The position numbers and the translations under genes are program-made. From assembly GCA_027450125.1 (NCBI GenBank), contig DAIDKG010000206.1:1-15530 (forward strand): a DNA stretch of 15,530 nucleotides, in the 5' to 3' direction. Below are positions 7,319-15,029 of the stretch, one piece after another. The stretch's first letter is position 1, and the number at the start of each line of letters is the position of its first letter. The notes beneath the pieces are model-generated. The model was given only the letters and a program-made list of their open reading frames with translations, did no database searches and had not been told where the DNA came from. The stretch comes from Bordetella sp. GTDB lineage: Bacteria > Pseudomonadota > Gammaproteobacteria > Burkholderiales > Burkholderiaceae_B.

Positions 7319-7322
<4 letters not shown>

Positions 7323-7951
7323 TGCGATCGGTAGTGCGGGCGTTGCTGTTTGTCGTGCTGGCCTGCGGCCCGGCGCTGGCCTGGGGCGCGACGGCGCAGG
7401 AGCAGCTCAAGGTCTTCGTGTCCACGGTGCACTCGGCCACGGGCTCCTTCAGCCAGGCCACGACCAGCCCGCAGGGAGGCAAGACGGCGCCCGCGCAGCA
7501 GGGCACCTTTGCCTTTCAGCGCCCCGGCAAGTTCCGCTGGGAAGTGCGCAAGCCCTACGCGCAGCTCATCGTGTCCGACGGCAAGCAGGTCTACCAGTAC
7601 GATCCCGACCTGGCCCAGGTCACCGTGCGCGAGGTCGGCAAGGCCATCGGCGCCTCGCCGGCCGCCATCCTGTTCGGCTCGGGCGATCTCGAACAGGCGT
7701 TCACGGTGACCTCGCTGCCCGACAAGGACGGCCTGCAATGGCTGCGTGCCAAGCCGCACAATGCCGCCGACGCGGGCTTTGCGCAGGTAGACATCGGCAT
7801 GCACGACAATCTGCCGGTGCGCATTTTGCTGCTCGATGCCTTCGGGCAGACCACGCGCGTGGATCTGTCCGGCATGCAGGCCAATGCAGCCGTGCCCGCG
7901 GGGCAATTCCAGTTCACGGCCCCCAAGGGCACGGACGTGGTGCGGATGTAA
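7319..7951 (+). CDS. lolA: LolA, periplasmic lipoprotein carrier
   Basis: This 210-residue protein takes lipoproteins released by LolCDE across the periplasm to LolB. It begins with a signal peptide (basic MMRSVVR, hydrophobic [15 protein letters not shown], cleavage likely near residue 23-25). The mature part has the LolA pattern: GSFSQ near the start, [20 protein letters not shown], then a core with [14 protein letters not shown], and the closing [12 protein letters not shown] motif. The ATG at 7319 has GGGAGG at 7309-7314 and overlaps the ftsK stop; a second ATG at 7322 is equally plausible. ftsK-lolA is a conserved pair, and the usual next gene, rarA, is displaced about 7 kb to the right. 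Confidence 0.95.
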
Positions 7952-8012: not shown

Positions 8013-8648
8013 CTAGCTGTTGCTCTTGCTCCAAGCCGCCGCGAAAGCATTCGCGGCGCTTCCCACGTCGGCCGCGCTCTTGCCTGGCTTGTACAGCGCC
8101 GAGCCGATGCCGAAGCCCGCGGCGCCTGCGGCGTGCCAGGCGGCCATGCAGTCGGGCGTGATGCCCCCAACCGGCAACAGCGCCGTGTCGCCGGGTAGCA
8201 CTGCACGCAGGGCCTTCAGGACGGCCGGGCTGATCATCTCGGCCGGGAAGAGCTTGAGCGCAGTGGCGCCTGCGTCGAGCGCCGCGAAGGCCTCGGTGGG
8301 CGTCATCACGCCGGGCAGGCAGGGCATGTCCAGGCGCACGGCTTCGCGTATCACCTCGGCATTGAAATTGGGCGATACGATCAGGCGGCCGCCCGCTGCA
8401 TGGACTTCGCGCACTTGCTGCGCGTTCAGCACCGTGCCGGCGCCCACCAGGGCCTGAGGGTGCTGATGCGCCAGCCGGGCGATGCTCTCCAGCGGCTGGG
8501 GCGAGTTCAGCGGCACTTCCAGCAGGCCGAAACCGGCTAAGGTCAGCGCGGCGCCGATGGCCGGAGCTTCGTCGGGCGTCAGGCCGCGCAGGATGGCGAC
8601 CAGTGGCAGGGTGCGCATCGCAGCGCCGAAGGTATCGTGAGCGTTCAT
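8013..8648 (-). CDS. dgoA: 2-dehydro-3-deoxy-6-phosphogalactonate aldolase
   Basis: This 211-residue class I aldolase splits 2-keto-3-deoxy-6-phosphogalactonate into pyruvate and glyceraldehyde-3-phosphate in the cytoplasm. The family residues are visible: Arg21 in LVAILRGLTPDEA, Glu44 in LLEVPLNSP (general base), the GAGTVL phosphate-side loop (69-74), Schiff-base Lys132 in TALKLFPAE, and the VGGITPD loop near the C-terminus. The NSPQ after the Glu strand and the GSALYKPGKS ending favour DgoA over the KDPG aldolase Eda. The start overlaps the dgoK stop (ATGA). It is the last gene of a three-gene leftward unit. No galactonate dehydratase (dgoD) accompanies it. Confidence 0.9.
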   Translation of the reverse strand: MNAHDTFGAAMRTLPLVAILRGLTPDEAPAIGAALTLAGFGLLEVPLNSPQPLESIARLAHQHPQALVGAGTVLNAQQVREVHAAGGRLIVSPNFNAEVIREAVRLDMPCLPGVMTPTEAFAALDAGATALKLFPAEMISPAVLKALRAVLPGDTALLPVGGITPDCMAAWHAAGAAGFGIGSALYKPGKSAADVGSAANAFAAAWSKSNS

Positions 8649-9553
8649 AGGAGCTTGGTCTGTTGTGCCAGAGCATGCAGCCCGGCCCAGGTGGCCTGGT
8701 CATGCAGGCTGCGGCTGGTTCGTCCGCGCAAGGCCAGCGCGCGGGCATAGTGGCCGGTAAGTTGCGGCGCGCCGATCAGCGCCGGCTCGCCGGCATCGGA
8801 GTCCGCCAGCGCCTGCCGCAGCTCCTCGCCGATCAGCAGGCCCGACAGATAGCTGCCCAGTTCGGCGGGCGTGCGGCCTTCGAGCAAGCCCAGCGTGCGA
8901 GCGCCGAAGGCGGTATGCAGCAGGCCCCGGCCCTCGAAAGCGCGCGCCGCGCCTTCGTCGAAGGCTGCGCCGTCGAAGGGGGCGTCGGCATCCACGGTCT
9001 TGGACAGCAGCGACTGGCGGCCGAACAGGGCGTAGAACTCGCCGGTCATGAAGGTGCGAAAAGCCTCGATGCGTCCATTTTGCACCCGTGCCCATTTGCT
9101 ATGGGTGCCGGGCAGCACGAAGATCCCATCCTGCAGGCCGGTAAGGCGTAGTGCGCCGAAGATCTGGACCTCTTCACCGCGCATGACGTCCGGCACGTCG
9201 TCCTGCGTGCAACGCATGCCCGGCACGATGGCCACGCGGTCGGCCGGGGCGCCGGGTGGATTCCAGAGCAGATGTTCGACCAGATCGCCGAAACCGGCGG
9301 GGCAGGGGCAGTAGGCCGCCTCGGCCCAGCCTTGCCGGCTGCCTGCCATGCCGGATATGAGGCATACGCTCGCCGCATCCATCCAGGGAGCGAAGCAGGC
9401 CTGGAAAACCGCGGCGAATTCGCCCTGCGGCACGCTCAGGATGCCGCGCCCGAAGGACTGTTCTTCCAGTATCTGCCCGGTTGCCGACAGCCGCGCGCCG
9501 CGCAGCGAACTGGTACCCCAATCGACTGCTACCAGGGTCTTGCCCGTGCTCAT
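8645..9553 (-). CDS. dgoK: 2-dehydro-3-deoxygalactonokinase
   Basis: This 302-residue protein of the ASKHA fold phosphorylates 2-keto-3-deoxy-galactonate at C6 using ATP. The phosphate-1 loop is VDWGTSSLRGA (10-20). Other DgoK signatures are SGMAGSRQGW (67-76), MRGEEVQIFG (124-133), and LPGTHSKWARV (147-157), which holds the substrate and nucleotide loops. The C-terminal part has ELGSYLSGLLIGEELR. Length matches the family (about 290-330). The start at 9553 overlaps the Rid gene stop by four bases; the frame stays open further upstream but without homology. It supplies the substrate for dgoA directly downstream. Confidence 0.92.
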   Translation of the reverse strand: MSTGKTLVAVDWGTSSLRGARLSATGQILEEQSFGRGILSVPQGEFAAVFQACFAPWMDAASVCLISGMAGSRQGWAEAAYCPCPAGFGDLVEHLLWNPPGAPADRVAIVPGMRCTQDDVPDVMRGEEVQIFGALRLTGLQDGIFVLPGTHSKWARVQNGRIEAFRTFMTGEFYALFGRQSLLSKTVDADAPFDGAAFDEGAARAFEGRGLLHTAFGARTLGLLEGRTPAELGSYLSGLLIGEELRQALADSDAGEPALIGAPQLTGHYARALALRGRTSRSLHDQATWAGLHALAQQTKLL

Positions 9554-9942
9554 GCGCGCGGCTTGTAGGCTGTCACGTCGATCTCGACCTTGGCGTCGAT
9601 CATCAGCCGCGATTCCACGGTGGAGCGCGCCGGGCGGTGATCGCCGAAGCACTCCATGTACACGCGGTTGAAGCTGCCGAAGTCGCGCGCGTCGGCCAGC
9701 CATACGCTGACTTTCGCCACGTCGGCCAGCGTGCAGTCGGCCAGCTCCAGCGCGTCCTGCACGCGCTTGAAGACCTGGCGCGTCTGCGCTTCGATGCCGC
9801 CCACGATCACTTGACCCTGGTCGTCGGTAGGTACCTGACCGGAGACGAAGACGAAATCGCCCGCACGGGTGGCGGGCGACAGCGGACGCGTCTGGCGATC
9901 CGAGGCAAGGGGGGATTGGCCGAGCATTTCGACAGCGGACAT
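9550..9942 (-). CDS. Rid family (YjgF/YER057c/UK114) enamine/imine deaminase
   Basis: This 130-residue protein is of the Rid family, which forms trimers and hydrolyses reactive 2-aminoacrylate-type enamines/imines released by PLP dehydratases. Arg106 in RPARSTVE and Glu120 in AKVEIDV align with the catalytic Arg105 and Glu120 of E. coli RidA. The GDFVFVSGQVP strand is typical. The Tyr of RidA (Tyr17, in IGPY) is replaced here by a Ser-Pro stretch (PLSPAT), so it belongs to a Rid subgroup other than classical RidA. The frame overlaps dgoK by four bases. It has GGAG about 7 bases before the start. Being in the same cassette as a PLP dehydratase suggests it handles that enzyme's intermediate. 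Confidence 0.88.
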   Translation of the reverse strand: MSAVEMLGQSPLASDRQTRPLSPATRAGDFVFVSGQVPTDDQGQVIVGGIEAQTRQVFKRVQDALELADCTLADVAKVSVWLADARDFGSFNRVYMECFGDHRPARSTVESRLMIDAKVEIDVTAYKPRA

Positions 9943-9953
9943 GAGGACTCCAA

Positions 9954-9968
9954 TGTAATAAGTTTACA
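9954..9968. promoter_or_regulatory. RpiR-type operator 1 (left, near the rid start)
   Basis: TGTAAT-AAG-TTTACA is an inverted repeat with one mismatch between arms (TGTAAT against TGTAAA). Its half-sites and 3-base spacer resemble the known HexR motif (TGTARTNNNAYTACA), and HexR is an RpiR-family regulator. It lies 12 bases upstream of the rid ATG, where bound protein would block leftward transcription. Confidence 0.5.
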
Positions 9969-10026
9969 AAAATATCTAGGGAAAACGCCTAAATCGTTTT
10001 TTATGGAACTTAAATACGATTATTGA

Positions 10027-10041
10027 TGTAATTTTATTACT
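10027..10041. promoter_or_regulatory. RpiR-type operator 2 (right, near the transporter start)
   Basis: TGTAAT-TTT-ATTACT contains the perfect dyad GTAAT-TTT-ATTAC and matches the HexR-type RpiR motif except for the last base. It ends 3 bases before the transporter's ribosome-binding site, a typical repressor position. It is centred 73 bases from operator 1, about seven helical turns. Confidence 0.55.
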
Positions 10042-10054
10042 TCAAGGAGACGCG

Positions 10055-11419
10055 ATGCAATCCCTCGCAACCGGGTCGAATACCCCGTCCGAAGCCGTCG
10101 CGCGCAGGCGTGCCGCCTTCGGCGCTTCGGTCGGTACATTGATCGAATACTACGACTATTACCTCTACGGCCTGGCGGCGGCCACCGTTTTTCCCAAAGT
10201 GTTCTTCCCCGCCTCCGATCTCACCATGGCGCAGCTGGCGTCGTTCGCTTCCTTCGCGGTCGGTTTTCTGCTGCGTCCGATCGGCGGCATCATCTTCGGG
10301 CACATCGGCGATCGCGCCGGCCGCAAAGCGGCGCTCATGATTACGGTTATCGGCATGGGCCTCGCCACCGCCGCGATCGGCCTGATCCCGTCGGCCGACC
10401 AATGGGGGGCGCTGGCTCCGTTGCTGCTCATCATATGCCGCAGCCTGCAAGGGCTTTTCGTGGGCGGCGAGATGGGGGGCGCGGCGACGCTGATCGTCGA
10501 GCACGCGAAACCGGGCAAGCGCGGCTTTTATGGTTCGCTGCTGATCGTCGGCGCCGGTATCGCCAATGTGCTGTCGGCGGGCCTGATGGCCGTGCTCGCG
10601 CGGAACCAGACCTGGTTCCTGGAGTGGGGTTGGAGATTGCCGTTCCTGTTCTCCCTGGTTCTGGTCGTGGTGGCGGTCATCATGCGCTCGCGGCTCGAAG
10701 AATCCGAGGAATTCCGCAAGCTGCTCCAGGAGCGCAAGCAGGCGCAAAAAAAGCGGCGGGCCCCGCTGCTCGAGGCGCTCGTCAAGCATCCCAAGAACGT
10801 CATTCTGGGCATACTCATGGGTCTCGTGCAGAGCATCGCGGGATACGTGATCCTGACGTTCGGACTTTCGCTCGTTGTGAAGGAGGGCGTTTCGAACCAG
10901 GTGGGCTTCATCGGAACCTTCATCGTCGGGGTCCTGCAGATAATCATGGCCCCGGTCTGGGGAGCGCTGTCCGACAAGATCGGCCGCCGGTCTTTGTATA
11001 TTGCGGCCGCCATTTTTCTCGCGATCATTGTCTATCCTGTCCTGATGCTCTATCAAACCAAGGATCCGCTGATGATCTGGATCGGCATGATCGTCGGTTT
11101 CGTCATTCCCGGCGTCGCGATGCAGGCGACGTTCCAGACCATGCTCGCGGAGATGTTCGACGTCCAGGCGCGCACCACGGGCGTCGGCCTCGGCTATCAG
11201 CTGTCCAACGTTTTCGGCGGCGGCTTCGCCCCGATGATCTGCGTGGCGCTGGTCGCTTCCGCCGGCGGCGCGATGTGGCCTGTGCTGATCTATGTGGCGG
11301 TCATCGCCCTGGCCAGCGTGCTGGCGACGGTCTTCGCGTCGCTGCGGCCGGATACCGCACGGGGGAGCGACGTTTCGTCGGGCTTGGACGCAAGCGGCGC
11401 GGCGCGGGCACGGAGTTAA
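10055..11419 (+). CDS. MFS transporter of the metabolite:H+ symporter (MHS) type
   Basis: This 454-residue inner-membrane protein has about 12 helices and the MHS pattern: GTLIEYYDYYLYGLAAA near the first helix, FLLRPIGGIIFGHIGDRAGR (containing the MFS motif between helices 2 and 3), SLQGLFVGGEMGGA, and WGWRLPFLFS before a charged central loop (EESEEFRKLLQERKQ). Relatives such as ShiA, ProP and KgtP import polar acids with protons. The substrate is not readable; in context an N-acylated amino-sugar acid or N-acyl-D-amino acid is inferred. AAGGAGA gives a strong start. Its DNA is visibly less GC-rich than its neighbours. It leads a four-gene rightward unit. Confidence 0.88.
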   Translation: MQSLATGSNTPSEAVARRRAAFGASVGTLIEYYDYYLYGLAAATVFPKVFFPASDLTMAQLASFASFAVGFLLRPIGGIIFGHIGDRAGRKAALMITVIGMGLATAAIGLIPSADQWGALAPLLLIICRSLQGLFVGGEMGGAATLIVEHAKPGKRGFYGSLLIVGAGIANVLSAGLMAVLARNQTWFLEWGWRLPFLFSLVLVVVAVIMRSRLEESEEFRKLLQERKQAQKKRRAPLLEALVKHPKNVILGILMGLVQSIAGYVILTFGLSLVVKEGVSNQVGFIGTFIVGVLQIIMAPVWGALSDKIGRRSLYIAAAIFLAIIVYPVLMLYQTKDPLMIWIGMIVGFVIPGVAMQATFQTMLAEMFDVQARTTGVGLGYQLSNVFGGGFAPMICVALVASAGGAMWPVLIYVAVIALASVLATVFASLRPDTARGSDVSSGLDASGAARARS

Positions 11420-11429
11420 TATCCGACGT

Positions 11430-12692
11430 ATGAACGACATTCTGCTTGACTCTCAGTACAAGGGCTTTCCCCTTGCCGCCGGACCCTGCCGCGCCAGCGA
11501 GATCGGCGCGCGCAACTGGTACCTTCTGGCCGACGATATGCCTTATCCGCTGGCCGTCCTCAGCCGTACCGCGATGGCCCATAACCTTGCCTGGATGCAG
11601 GACTTCGCCCGCCGCAAGGGCATAGACCTGGCGCCGCACGGCAAGACCACGATGTCGCCCGAGCTGTTTGCGCAGCAACTCGCAGCGGGGGCCTGGGGTC
11701 TGACCTTCGCCACGGTTTTCCAGGTCGGCATCGGCGTGGCGGCTGGCGCGCGTCGCATCATCGTCGCCAACCAGGTGCTGGCCGATGCCGACCTGGACGG
11801 ACTGGCCGCGCTGCTGGCCGGGCACGCCGATCTGCGCGTGTGGTTTCTGGTCGATTCGGCCGCCCAGCTTGGGCTCATCGAAGACTGGGCCCGGCGCCGC
11901 AACTGGCCGGGCCGCTTCGACGTGCTGTTGGAAATGGGCATCCCCGGCCAGCGCACCGGCTGCCGCACGCAAGACGAGGCCGTGGCCCTGGCTCGGGCCT
12001 TGGCGCGTTCGCCAGCGGTGCGTTTCGGCGGCATCGAATGCTACGAGGGCGGCGTGGCCCGTTGCGACAGCGAGCATGACACCCGCGAAGTCACGGCCTT
12101 GGTGCAGCGGGTGCTCGACCTGGCCCGCGTCTGCGATGTCGAAGACCTGTTCGCCCAAGACCCGCCCTTGTTCACGGCGGGCGGCTCCGCTGTCTTCGAC
12201 CTCGTTGTGCCGCTGCTGCGCGCCCAGGGGCTGTCGCGCCCCGTGCGCGGCGTGCTGCGCTCGGGCTGCTACATCACGCACGACCACGGCAATTACGCCC
12301 GTTTTCTCAAGAACGTGGAGCAGCGCGAAGGGCTGGACGAATCCCTGCGTCCCGCGCTGGAAGTCTGGGCGATGGTGCAGTCCGTGCCCGAGCCGGGCCT
12401 GGCATTGCTTACCTGCGGCCGGCGCGACATCTCCTACGATCTGGAAATGCCCATTCCCCAGCGTCATGCGGCGCGGGGCGCGCGCACGTCGACGCCCGTG
12501 CCCGCGAGTTGGAAAATCACCGCCCTGAACGACCAGCATGCCTACCTGCGTTTCGAGGGGCCTGCGCCCCAGGTGGGCGACCGGGTTGCGCTGGGCATTT
12601 CGCATCCTTGCACCACCTTCGACAAGTGGCGCTGGCTGCCCTTGATCGAGGACGACGGCCGCATCAGCGGTGCAGTCCACACCTGCTTCTGA
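11430..12692 (+). CDS. D-serine dehydratase-like PLP/metal enzyme (beta-hydroxy-D-amino acid dehydratase or deaminase)
   Basis: This 420-residue cytoplasmic enzyme is of the fold-type III family, with an alanine-racemase-like N-terminal barrel and a D-serine-dehydratase-like C-terminal domain. The PLP lysine is Lys72 in LAPHGKTTMSPE. The metal site is His392-Pro-Cys394 in SHPCTTFDKW. The H-x-C arrangement is that of eukaryotic D-serine dehydratase and D-threo-3-hydroxyaspartate dehydratase, whereas D-threonine aldolases have H-x-D. Elimination of water from a D-configured beta-hydroxy amino acid is therefore the likely reaction. The start at 11430 follows the transporter stop by 10 bases; the frame is open further upstream inside the transporter, without homology. 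The stop overlaps the rpiR start (TGATG). Confidence 0.85.
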   Translation: MNDILLDSQYKGFPLAAGPCRASEIGARNWYLLADDMPYPLAVLSRTAMAHNLAWMQDFARRKGIDLAPHGKTTMSPELFAQQLAAGAWGLTFATVFQVGIGVAAGARRIIVANQVLADADLDGLAALLAGHADLRVWFLVDSAAQLGLIEDWARRRNWPGRFDVLLEMGIPGQRTGCRTQDEAVALARALARSPAVRFGGIECYEGGVARCDSEHDTREVTALVQRVLDLARVCDVEDLFAQDPPLFTAGGSAVFDLVVPLLRAQGLSRPVRGVLRSGCYITHDHGNYARFLKNVEQREGLDESLRPALEVWAMVQSVPEPGLALLTCGRRDISYDLEMPIPQRHAARGARTSTPVPASWKITALNDQHAYLRFEGPAPQVGDRVALGISHPCTTFDKWRWLPLIEDDGRISGAVHTCF

Positions 12693-13585
12693 TGGACGGT
12701 CTGCTCAAGCAACTGCGTAACCGTATGTCCGCATTGCCCGACGCACAGCGTCGCGTCGTGCAATGCATACTGGAAGACCCGCGCGCCGCCGTCGCTGCCA
12801 CGGTCGAACAACTGGCCCAGCAGGCGGGCGTGTCCATGCCCACCATCGTGCGCACCTGTCGCGCCTTCGGCCATGAGTCGGTGCGCGACTTCATGCTGGC
12901 GCTAGCGCAGGATCTGGCCGTCACCGGCTCCTATCTGCACCGCAGCGTGCTGGCCGAGGACAGTGCGCAGGATGTGGCCAGCAAAATCATCCACGCGGCG
13001 GTGTCGTCCCTGACCGAGTTGGGCCGGCGCATTGATATCGCCATGGTCGAGCGCGTCGTCGCGTGCCTGGCGCAGGCGCGCCGTATCGACTGCTATTCGG
13101 TCGGCGCGGCGTCCACGTTCATGGCGCAGGAGCTGCAAAGTCGCCTGTTCCGCCTGGGTCTGACGGCCAACGCCATTTTCGACCTGCATCAGCAGCTCGT
13201 CTCGGCCAGCACGCTGGGGCCGCAGGGTGTGGCCTTCGTCATCTCGCACGTGGGCCGCATGCCCTACACGCTCGAGGCCGCCAGGTTCGCCCGTGCCCAG
13301 GGCGCCACCGTCGTCGCGCTGACCCAGCCCGATACGCCGCTGGCCGAGGTGGCCGATCTGCCTTTGCTGGTCTCGGTGCCGCAGGACGCGGTCATGCGAG
13401 TGGGTACCGAAGCTTATCTGGCGCACCTGGTCGTGATCGAAGTGCTGATGGTGCGCCTGGCCCAGCAACTGGGTCCCGTGGCCGCGCGCGGCCTGGGCCA
13501 ATACCGCCAATTGCTGAGTAAATACGGATTCGACAGCGCCGAATATTCCGGCGCACAGGAACTGGACGATGAATACAAGCACTGA
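12692..13585 (+). CDS. RpiR/MurR-family transcriptional regulator with SIS domain
   Basis: This 297-residue regulator has an N-terminal HTH_6 domain (about 1-77), with the recognition region TVEQLAQQAGVSMPTIVRTC (37-56), then a C-terminal SIS sugar-phosphate-binding domain (about 120-260: CYSVGAASTFMAQELQSRLF and VAFVISHVGRMPYTLEAARF). SIS regulators respond to phosphosugars; HexR, for instance, responds to KDPG. The KDPGal made by DgoK would be a fitting ligand. The usual S-G-x-T/S loop of the SIS site reads SHVGRMPYT here, a variation worth noting. The start is set by one-base overlap with the preceding stop. It probably acts at the two TGTAAT dyads upstream of the cassette; that link is inferred. 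Confidence 0.9.
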   Translation: MDGLLKQLRNRMSALPDAQRRVVQCILEDPRAAVAATVEQLAQQAGVSMPTIVRTCRAFGHESVRDFMLALAQDLAVTGSYLHRSVLAEDSAQDVASKIIHAAVSSLTELGRRIDIAMVERVVACLAQARRIDCYSVGAASTFMAQELQSRLFRLGLTANAIFDLHQQLVSASTLGPQGVAFVISHVGRMPYTLEAARFARAQGATVVALTQPDTPLAEVADLPLLVSVPQDAVMRVGTEAYLAHLVVIEVLMVRLAQQLGPVAARGLGQYRQLLSKYGFDSAEYSGAQELDDEYKH

Positions 13586-15029
13586 GTGCACCACGCTGCT
13601 CAAGAACGGCCTGCTGGTCGATGGCAGCGGTGCACCCGGCTGGCAGGGCGACCTGCTGATCTCGGGCGAGCGCATCGCTGCACTCGGTGCACCCGGCACG
13701 CTGCCGTGCGCCGATGAAACCGTCGATTGCACCGGCATGGTCATCGCCCCGGGCTTCATCGACGTGCACACGCATGACGATGCCGCCGTGCTCGACGCGC
13801 CGGGCATGTTGCCCAAGCTCTCGCAGGGCGTGACCACCGTGATCGTCGGCAATTGCGGCATCTCGCTGGCCCCCGTGGTCACGGGCGAACCGACGGCGCC
13901 CTTGTCGTTGCTGGGCCGCCGCCAGTTCCGCCACGCCCGCATGGCCGACTACGCGCAGGCGGTCGACGCCGCGCATCCCGGCGTCAACGTGGCCGCGCTG
14001 CTGGGGCACACTGCGCTGCGCATGCGTTACATGGACGATCTGGATCGCCCCGCCAACGAACAAGAGCGGACCGCGATGGCGGATGCCATGCAGGAAGCGA
14101 TGGATGCGGGCGCGCTGGGACTGTCTTCCGGCATCTTCTACAAGCAGGCCTACGCGGCCGATCTGGAAGAACTTACCGCCGTGGCCTGCGTGGCCGCGAG
14201 GAACGGCGGCGTCTATGCCACCCATATCCGCGACGAACTGGCCGGCATCATTCCCGCGCTGCACGAGGCGGCCCAGACGGCTCGCCAGGCCGGCCTGCCG
14301 CTGGTGCTGTCGCATCACAAATGCGCCGGCGCTGCCAACTGGGGCCGCACGCGCGAGACCTTGCCGCTCATCGAATCGCTGGCCCAGGGCCAGCCACTGG
14401 GCATGGACGTGTACCCCTATACCGCGGGCTCCACCGTGCTGCGCACCGACCTGGTGGACGGCATGATCGACATCCTCATCACGGGCAGCCAGCCGCATCC
14501 CGAGATGACGGGCCGCTATCTCAAGGACATCGCCCGCGAATGGGGCGTTTCCGAGACCCAGGCCTGCGATCGCCTGCAGCCCGGCGGGGCCTGCTACTTC
14601 CAGATGCGCCAGGACGACGTGGACCGGGTCGTGACCCATCCCTTGTCCATGATCGGCTCCGACGGCCTGCCGCACGACGAGCGCCCGCATCCGCGCCTGT
14701 GGGGCACCTTCCCGCGCGTGCTGGCTTCGTATTGGCGCGAACGCGGCCTGCTGCCGCTGGAGCAGGCCATCCACAAGATGAGCGGCCTGTCGGCCGCGCG
14801 CTTTCGCATCGCCGGACGCGGCCTGCTGCAAGCCGGCTGCATGGCCGATGTGGTTGTCATCGATCCCCAACGCGTGAAGGACACCGCCACCTACGAGCAA
14901 CCCGTGCAGTTCAGCGAAGGCATCGAGCGGGTGTGGGTCAATGGCGTACTCAGCTATACGTCGGCCCGGCGCAGCACGGGCGCCAGGGCGGGCCGTTTCG
15001 TGCGGCGTTCCAGCACGGGCCAGGCGTAA
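13569..15029 (+). CDS. N-acyl-D-amino-acid deacylase (amidohydrolase superfamily)
   Basis: This 486-residue cytoplasmic metalloenzyme removes the acyl group from N-acyl-D-amino acids. Metal-site residues match D-aminoacylases: His67 and His69 in DVHTHDD, bridging Cys96 in GNCGISL, His219 in ATHIRDE, His250 in SHHKCAG, and catalytic Asp365 in [17 protein letters not shown]. There is no signal peptide. The protein clearly resembles the characterised Bordetella bronchiseptica N-acyl-D-glutamate deacylase Bb3285, but differs enough (for example HTHDD against HGHDD) to be a paralogue with its own substrate. It overlaps rpiR by 17 bases, so it is co-translated. In this cassette it would free the amino group before the dehydratase acts. 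Specificity cannot be read directly. Confidence 0.9.

Follow-up and report, generated by a model that had tools for sequence, protein, structure and literature searches.

The stretch analysed here comprises 15,530 nucleotides from Bordetella sp. (contig DAIDKG010000206.1, C206; hereafter the window), and its positions 8013–15029 carry seven closely packed genes, each recovered where the initial annotation had placed it. This cassette probably serves the catabolism of an N-acyl-2-amino-2-deoxy-D-hexonate, with N-acetyl-D-galactosaminate or either C4 isomer as the likeliest substrate; the substrate class is well supported because homology, partner genes and regulation all argue for it. A dedicated N-acetyl-D-galactosaminate pathway, which would run through 2-keto-3-deoxy-galactonate and 2-keto-3-deoxy-6-phosphogalactonate (KDPGal), respond to a KDPGal-sensing RpiR repressor and replace a gluco version at the same site in this lineage, is put forward tentatively, and the galacto-specific configuration itself is favoured at no better than about even odds. 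The set is a variant of the published ong chemistry in a distinct branch, and not an undescribed pathway. The initial annotation, which knew of no established description of this set, had overlooked the ong cluster with its homologous OngB, OngC, RidA, RpiR and 2-keto-3-deoxygluconate (KDG) kinase (PMC9537276); the proposed scheme thus corresponds to that pathway, apart from its kinase and its aldolase.

In the ong cluster of Pseudoalteromonas prydzensis, as described in the sections available of Jiang 2022 (PMC9537276), OngB deacetylates N-acetyl-D-glucosaminate, and OngC, a fold-type III pyridoxal phosphate (PLP) enzyme, turns the product into KDG and ammonia in vitro without RidA. KdgK phosphorylates KDG, the RpiR-family protein OngR acts as repressor, and the RidA protein OngD is required for growth in a role given there as unknown. 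The same source names Achromobacter piechaudii as one betaproteobacterial carrier of the pathway, an additional aldolase gene, kdgA, in Vibrio, Klebsiella and Serratia, and a natural source of N-acetyl-glucosaminate. Elsewhere, an ong-like operon around a GH20 gene is noted with no function given in the text available (PMC7014002), and OngB and OngC were not clearly found in two Aeromonas according to the part of PMC11653859 available.

By homology with these enzymes, the cassette may work as follows. The MHS carrier would import the N-acyl-hexonate, and the zinc amidohydrolase, an OngB homologue with retained acetamido and carboxylate residues, would remove the N-acetyl group. The PLP enzyme would then eliminate water across C2–C3, and the resulting enamine/imine would lose ammonia, aided by RidA, to give a 2-keto-3-deoxy-hexonate. 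Phosphorylation and cleavage would follow, ending in pyruvate. The RpiR protein, if it behaves like RccR and HexR, would act at two 15-base operators and keep both operons repressed for as long as 2-keto-3-deoxy-6-phospho-hexonate has not built up. The step order and substrate class proposed in the initial annotation gain support from the ong enzymes, which deacetylate, PLP-deaminate and phosphorylate N-acetyl-D-glucosaminate (PMC9537276, as far as available), and from the GH20 gene that joins the set in three loci (L195, L197 and L198).

Loci compared

From 333 relatives, 80 were retained for analysis. Counts for window-type loci refer to the 76 of 83 loci that are at least 17 kb long. Most of them came from a similarity search with the window's dehydratase and lean toward its kin, so this sample is not even. 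In an even family sample, a deacylase match at E ≤ 1e-150 is present in 37 of 299 genomes, and the contexts come from 35 of those 37 (without G645 and G715), including L174, which is cut short at 11 kb. Presence and absence were counted by tblastn, and gene calling in the relatives was heuristic. The labels oppB, oppC, oppDF, IlvD, GntR and 2HADH were assigned by eye or position; among neighbours, representatives of SBP_bac_5, SBP_bac_1, PfkB and GH20 were checked against Pfam.

Deacylase, dehydratase and RidA

The window deacylase is 51.6% identical to PDB chain 9g5m, 48.4% to the D-aminoacylase AfDam (1m7j) and 43.2% to PpOngB. In a tree of 59 hand-picked sequences out of 94 it belongs to a third clade, outside the OngB and AfDam clades: its group holds 47 rows (support 95/89), the OngB group nine (OngB, 9g5m, L122–L124, L127, L128, L138 and L199; 100/100) and the AfDam group three (AfDam and two relatives; 98/92). 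The zinc Cys/His/His set, two further His and the catalytic Asp (equivalents of C97, H222, H252, H68, H70 and D368) occur in 94/94 aligned rows, and the acetamido/carboxylate and catalytic residues named in the available part of PMC12017989 are retained in the window. Allowing at most a D/E or A/C change, the window's 21-site pattern is common to 82 of the 94 aligned deacylases, itself included. L135 and L136, which a motif filter excluded from the main alignments and which were aligned separately afterwards, match this pattern except for Tyr at 298.

The pocket is polar, yet by its residues unlike that of OngB. In PpOngB numbering it would comprise Phe193, Gly290, Thr292, Asp/Glu300 and Gln348, present in the window and 83 aligned relatives; relative to PpOngB, A193 is replaced by F, S290 by G, S292 by T, Q298 by L and G348 by Q. 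The hydrophobic side-chain pocket of AfDam, given as Phe191, Met254, Leu298 and Met346 (PMC12017989, in part), is not retained, as the window reads Phe, Ala, Asp and Gln at these positions. AfDam Leu298 corresponds to PpOngB Gln298 by structure (same partial source) and falls at 300 in the ungapped alignment used here; since the two place this residue differently, both columns are reported. Two side observations concern this family. PDB 9g5m, named only amidohydrolase, carries the OngB residues Ser292 and Gln298. L125 and L126 hold a further deacylase type (A193, S290, T292, F298, D300, Q348) that groups with AfDam, and their stretches gave no match to the dehydratase or RidA.

The solved chain closest to the window dehydratase is 3gwq, entitled 'D-serine deaminase'. 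The window enzyme has the motifs HGKTTM and HPC, of which HGKTT is found in 58/63 and HPC in 63/63 aligned rows; we take HGKTT to be the PLP lysine motif and the C-terminal HPC to be the His/Cys metal pair. A tree of 63 rows, hand-picked from 127, splits like that of the deacylases: 3gwq stands with the OngC-type rows, apart from 52 window-type rows, and the dehydratases of L135–L137 fall on the OngC side. As a separate observation, 3gwq, given its place inside the OngC-type clade, may itself be a glucosaminate dehydratase. RidA is matched in 73 of the 76 window-type loci.

A further 23 full-length loci have the dehydratase and no deacylase; dgoK is present in 10 of them and none of the kinase or aldolase genes in 13. 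In L047, L075, L076, L082, L097, L098, L099, L101, L103 and L106, which have no deacylase, dgoA-dgoK diverges from the dehydratase gene; six of these loci have pfkB, and most adjoin genes that resemble, by eye, those for IlvD-type dehydratases or GntR regulators. These ten are perhaps users of free hexosaminates.

Kinase and aldolase partners

The kinase and aldolase genes vary from locus to locus. Of the 76 loci, 21 have dgoK and dgoA, two have dgoK, dgoA and pfkB, 19 have pfkB alone and 34 have neither kinase. The co-occurrence search called for in the initial annotation thus places dgoK beside the set in 23/76 loci, or 12/43 after dereplication at 85%, above a chance level of about 0.4% (one gene per 5 Mb, 20 kb). 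DgoK and PfkB belong to two different Pfam families that appear, from this distribution, to be swapped for one kind of product. Tandem dgoA-dgoK-pfkB genes are found in L041 and L056, and the divergent loci L135 and L136 (deacylase 51–52% identical) have the order dsd-rpiR-dac-dgoK-dgoA, with an SBP_bac_1 gene near L135.

The window DgoK is the only DgoK found in the source assembly, which spans 3.0 Mb in 600 contigs and is 73% complete. The initial annotation had remarked that no galactonate dehydratase stands beside the set, and this holds more widely: DgoD is not in the window, and in the assembly, within that completeness, no match to NF010624 exceeds the cut-off of 311 (best 120 and 52 bits). 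The window DgoA carries the KDPGal signature, namely Val at the V154 site, the beta-1 strand LVAIL and PVGGI. The V154/T161 positions and the beta-1 strand are given as sites of aldolase stereochemistry in the available part of PMC4915726, where the E. coli enzyme is quoted as favouring KDPGal about 200-fold, with a log(E) of −2.3. Among aligned loci, aldolases beside dgoK have Val at the key site in all but L201; the aldolases of 34–41% identity in L047, L063, L082, L087, L096, L097, L101 and L175 have the KDPG-type (2-keto-3-deoxy-6-phosphogluconate) PTGG.

A second aldolase match of 80–100 bits, presumably Eda-type by score and not by residue, occurs in 17/17 genomes with dgoA in the locus. 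The idea that DgoA stands in for a missing Eda was considered and is unlikely on this count. The DgoA signature, and the fact that DgoA occurs alongside a second aldolase, favour the galacto configuration. Among the 24 window-type genomes that lack dgoA in the locus, 17 have DgoA above the cut-off elsewhere.

Regulator and operator-like palindromes

The best NCBIfam model for the regulator is HexR, at 181.7 bits, below the cut-off of 296 for HexR membership. Two operator-like palindromes close to TGTAAT-N3-ATTACA lie in the 112 bases between the operons. In divergent regions of the loci the best palindrome scores 11 or 12 of 12 in 48/85 cases; among 4,250 mononucleotide-shuffled regions, one or two score as high. 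Where the deacylase is at least 66% identical to that of the window, a site of at least 10/12 is present in 47/47 window-type loci, and 46/47 carry two that score 9 or more, spaced 71–75 bases apart in 44 and 100–101 in two. In the 3.0 Mb assembly the stricter pattern TGTAATNNNATTACW is found at palindrome 2 and nowhere else; palindrome 1 does not conform to it. RccR of Pseudomonas binds KDPG, and at aceE it uses two 15-base sites of the form TGTAGT-N3-ACTACA, separated by 68 bases (PMC5489143, available in part). The initial annotation's choice of KDPGal as the regulator's ligand may draw indirect support from the likeness of these palindromes.

In four more distant window-type loci (L170, L172, L177 and L184) the corresponding promoter region contains a TGAAA-N5-TTTCA-like palindrome, which suggests that the regulator's site has changed there.

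The lolA–rarA site

The cassette sits between lolA (7319–7951) and rarA (from 15123), both named by eye. Fifteen lolA loci were compared with the window, fourteen of its own genus and L215 from a different genus within the family. Downstream of lolA, seven of the fifteen have an OngB-type cluster (L122, L202, L206, L208, L210, L213 and L215); six are closed by rarA, and the L213 stretch ends before it. In L207, L209 and L214 lolA adjoins rarA directly, in L203 a lone OngC-like gene separates the two, and the arrangement of L204, L205, L211 and L212 was not assignable. The seven clusters, predicted to act on N-acetyl-glucosaminate, come with an ABC transporter, and the stretches scanned gave no match to dgoK or pfkB.

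A sister genome, G013, has FtsK 97% and LolA 93% identical to those of the window, yet it bears an OngB-type cluster between lolA and rarA, in an orientation opposite to the window's deacylase arm and with the exact PpOngB residue pattern. We infer replacement by transfer at this site, because G013 has the OngB-type cluster in the same place and the closest deacylase to the window's comes from Comamonadaceae (80%, L052).

Gene layout and transport

Start/stop overlaps at four junctions indicate two divergent operons around the 112-base region, which has 31% GC between genes of about 64–70%. The minus arm holds dgoA, dgoK and ridA, and the plus arm the genes for the MHS carrier, PLP enzyme, RpiR regulator and amidohydrolase (Table 1).

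Table 1. Features of the cassette, with positions in the window.
Feature	Position	Strand	Basis
DgoA-type aldolase	8013–8648	-	NF006600, 277.7 bits (cut-off 207); closest solved chain 2v81 (E. coli KDPGal aldolase)
DgoK, 2-keto-3-deoxygalactonate kinase family	8645–9553	-	PF05035, 310.9 bits (gathering cut-off 25); 4-base overlap with each neighbour
RidA-family protein, OngD counterpart	9550–9942	-	PF01042, 102.6 bits
Operator-like palindrome 1, TGTAATAAGTTTACA	9954–9968	.	11/12 to TGTAAT-N3-ATTACA
Operator-like palindrome 2, TGTAATTTTATTACT	10027–10041	.	11/12 to TGTAAT-N3-ATTACA
MHS-family metabolite:H+ symporter, presumed importer	10055–11419	+	TIGR00883, 392.2 bits (below cut-off 443)
Fold-type III PLP dehydratase/deaminase, OngC-like, D-serine-dehydratase-like	11430–12692	+	PF14031, PF01168
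RpiR/SIS regulator, HexR/RccR-like	12692–13585 (start taken as 12692)	+	PF01418, PF01380
Subtype V amidohydrolase, D-aminoacylase-like, predicted to deacetylate N-acyl-hexosaminates	13569–15029	+	PF07969

Against the shikimate-transporter model the MHS protein scores 348.1 bits, below the cut-off of 538, and its gene had no match in those relatives' loci that were scanned for it. An SBP_bac_5-type ABC transporter replaces the carrier in 70/76 relatives' loci. In L195, L197 and L198 a GH20 hexosaminidase and an SBP_bac_1-type ABC transporter stand beside rid, dehydratase and deacylase genes (PF00728, 228 bits in L197 and 211 bits in L198; L195 by similarity; SBP_bac_1 checked in L197).

Evidence against and alternative readings

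Several observations weigh against the pathway as proposed. The best-supported split of the deacylase tree, which is unrooted, puts OngB apart from AfDam and the window's clade together. The OngB specificity residues Ser292 and Gln298 are missing, with Thr292 as in D-aminoacylases and Leu298 in their place, and we know of no activity for any protein of the window's deacylase branch. The palindrome was picked after inspection of the window, and the loci are kin to one another, so that the shuffles overstate its weight and are not an independent test; more distant loci reach a score of 10 in only 8/28. The initial annotation had named the separation of the dgo genes from the rest in most genomes as an outcome that would refute its scheme; the even family sample shows that separation, with dgoK in 1/35 contexts, pfkB in 6/35 (one 6.5 kb away) and neither kinase in 28/35. 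Against the galacto configuration in particular, seven of the 24 window-type genomes with no dgoA in the locus have no DgoA match above the cut-off, four of them titled metagenome-assembled genomes and one 99% complete. The enrichment of DgoA is modest, 21/37 with the deacylase against 88/262 without it (p = 0.0098, ignoring kinship and genome size), and the DgoA adjoining dgoK elsewhere in G047 (L201) carries Phe in place of Val at this position of the signature. For the galacto substrate named in the initial annotation, DgoK and a KDPGal-signature DgoA in genomes with a second aldolase (17/17) speak in favour; an Eda-type aldolase, which L063 has within the operon and L087 and L096 have next to the set, speaks against. 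Finally, OngC is reported to accept D-serine and D-threonine as well (PMC9537276, in part).

Alternatively, the substrate could be N-acetyl-D-glucosaminate as in ong, with DgoK and DgoA replacing KdgK and Eda and acting on KDG and KDPG. The homology to OngB and OngC, the PfkB kinase in 19/76 loci, the Eda-type aldolases of L063, L087 and L096 and the known natural source of N-acetyl-glucosaminate (PMC9537276, in part) are all in keeping with this. Nevertheless, we consider it unlikely, if by no means negligible, in view of the KDPGal signature of DgoA, the roughly 200-fold preference of the E. coli enzyme (PMC4915726, in part), the second aldolase already present in 17/17 genomes with dgoA in the locus, the pocket unlike that of OngB, and the sister genome with its OngB-type cluster at the same site. 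Judging from the Eda-type aldolase of L063 and from the kinase genes that stand in tandem in L041 and L056, a shared front end may accept both C4 isomers.

Scavenging of N-acyl-D-amino acids such as those of D-serine or D-threonine, with dgoK and dgoA as neighbours serving another sugar, would account for the D-aminoacylase and D-serine-dehydratase families, for Thr292 as in AfDam, for the SBP_bac_5-type (peptide family) transporter in 70/76 loci and for the 28/35 even-sample contexts that have no kinase. It accords poorly with an overlapping rid-dgoK-dgoA operon behind a promoter region with paired palindromes, with the swapping of two kinase families, with GH20 in three loci, with Asp/Glu300 and Gln348 against Leu and Met in AfDam, and with a dehydratase near dgoK in 10/23 deacylase-less loci, and is improbable. 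A substrate with another acyl group or a C3 ether, such as a muramic-acid-like aldonate from which the PLP enzyme eliminates something besides water, is very improbable: the peptide-family transporter of most relatives and the pocket unlike OngB's would suit it, the rest of the idea is conjecture, and no recurrent amidase, etherase or peptidase was recognised in the loci, most of whose flanking gene clusters are unannotated.

Implications and comparison with known systems

The cassette read as a hexosaminate pathway suggests that the recently found handling of amino-sugar acids in the manner of D-amino acids also occurs outside chitin-oxidising Gammaproteobacteria, and that Burkholderiales have a separate branch of it, distinguished by the deacylase pocket, the kinase swaps and the operator. 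Were the galacto configuration true, it would provide a route for oxidised galactosamine, of which no description was found in the open-licence literature searched for galactosaminate catabolism, and the pathway would shift sugar stereochemistry through exchange of an enzyme set at one site. Genes annotated as D-aminoacylase or D-serine deaminase may be sugar-acid enzymes.

A link with lytic polysaccharide monooxygenases (LPMOs) was tried as a criterion and rejected. AA10 enzymes are absent from the source assembly (G000), occur in 3/60 window-type genomes and in 1/7 OngB-type genomes (1/8 with G548, which has both), and are absent from G013 and G012, the two genomes searched among those with OngB-type lolA loci; because they are rare in both groups, their co-occurrence does not discriminate.

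The De Ley-Doudoroff galactonate (dgo) pathway includes DgoD, DgoK and DgoA. The window shares the latter two and differs in having no DgoD, the 2-keto-3-deoxy acid coming presumably from an amino acid by way of the PLP enzyme. With RccR and HexR (PMC5489143, in part) the window shares an RpiR-family regulator and paired 15-base TGTA-type palindromes, here putative operators; its half-sites are ATTACA and not ACTACA, and the HexR score is below the cut-off. The OngB-type locus L122 has no such palindrome (best score 6/12), unlike the window.

Among deacylases, AfDam (1m7j) shares F193, G290 and T292 with the window and differs at Leu298 and Met346 (AfDam numbering), which become Asp and Gln, and at Met254, which becomes Ala. 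PpOngB, the GlcNAc1A deacetylase (Wang 2025, PMC12017989; 9kb1), shares the fold family by sequence, the zinc site and the carboxylate and acetamido residues; it is reported, in the text available, to be active on N-acetyl-hexosaminate, with none on N-acyl-D-amino acids. The ong cluster is closest as a whole. It differs in having KdgK where the window has DgoK and DgoA, and an SSS transporter where the window has the MHS carrier; no GH20 or TonB receptor was found in the window, and the window deacylase and dehydratase lie in separate clades. Shared by both are a linked RidA, an OngC-like PLP enzyme, an RpiR regulator, a D-aminoacylase-like deacetylase and a sugar-acid kinase, with a step order that would be alike, and the GH20 beta-hexosaminidase of L195, L197 and L198 parallels OngA.

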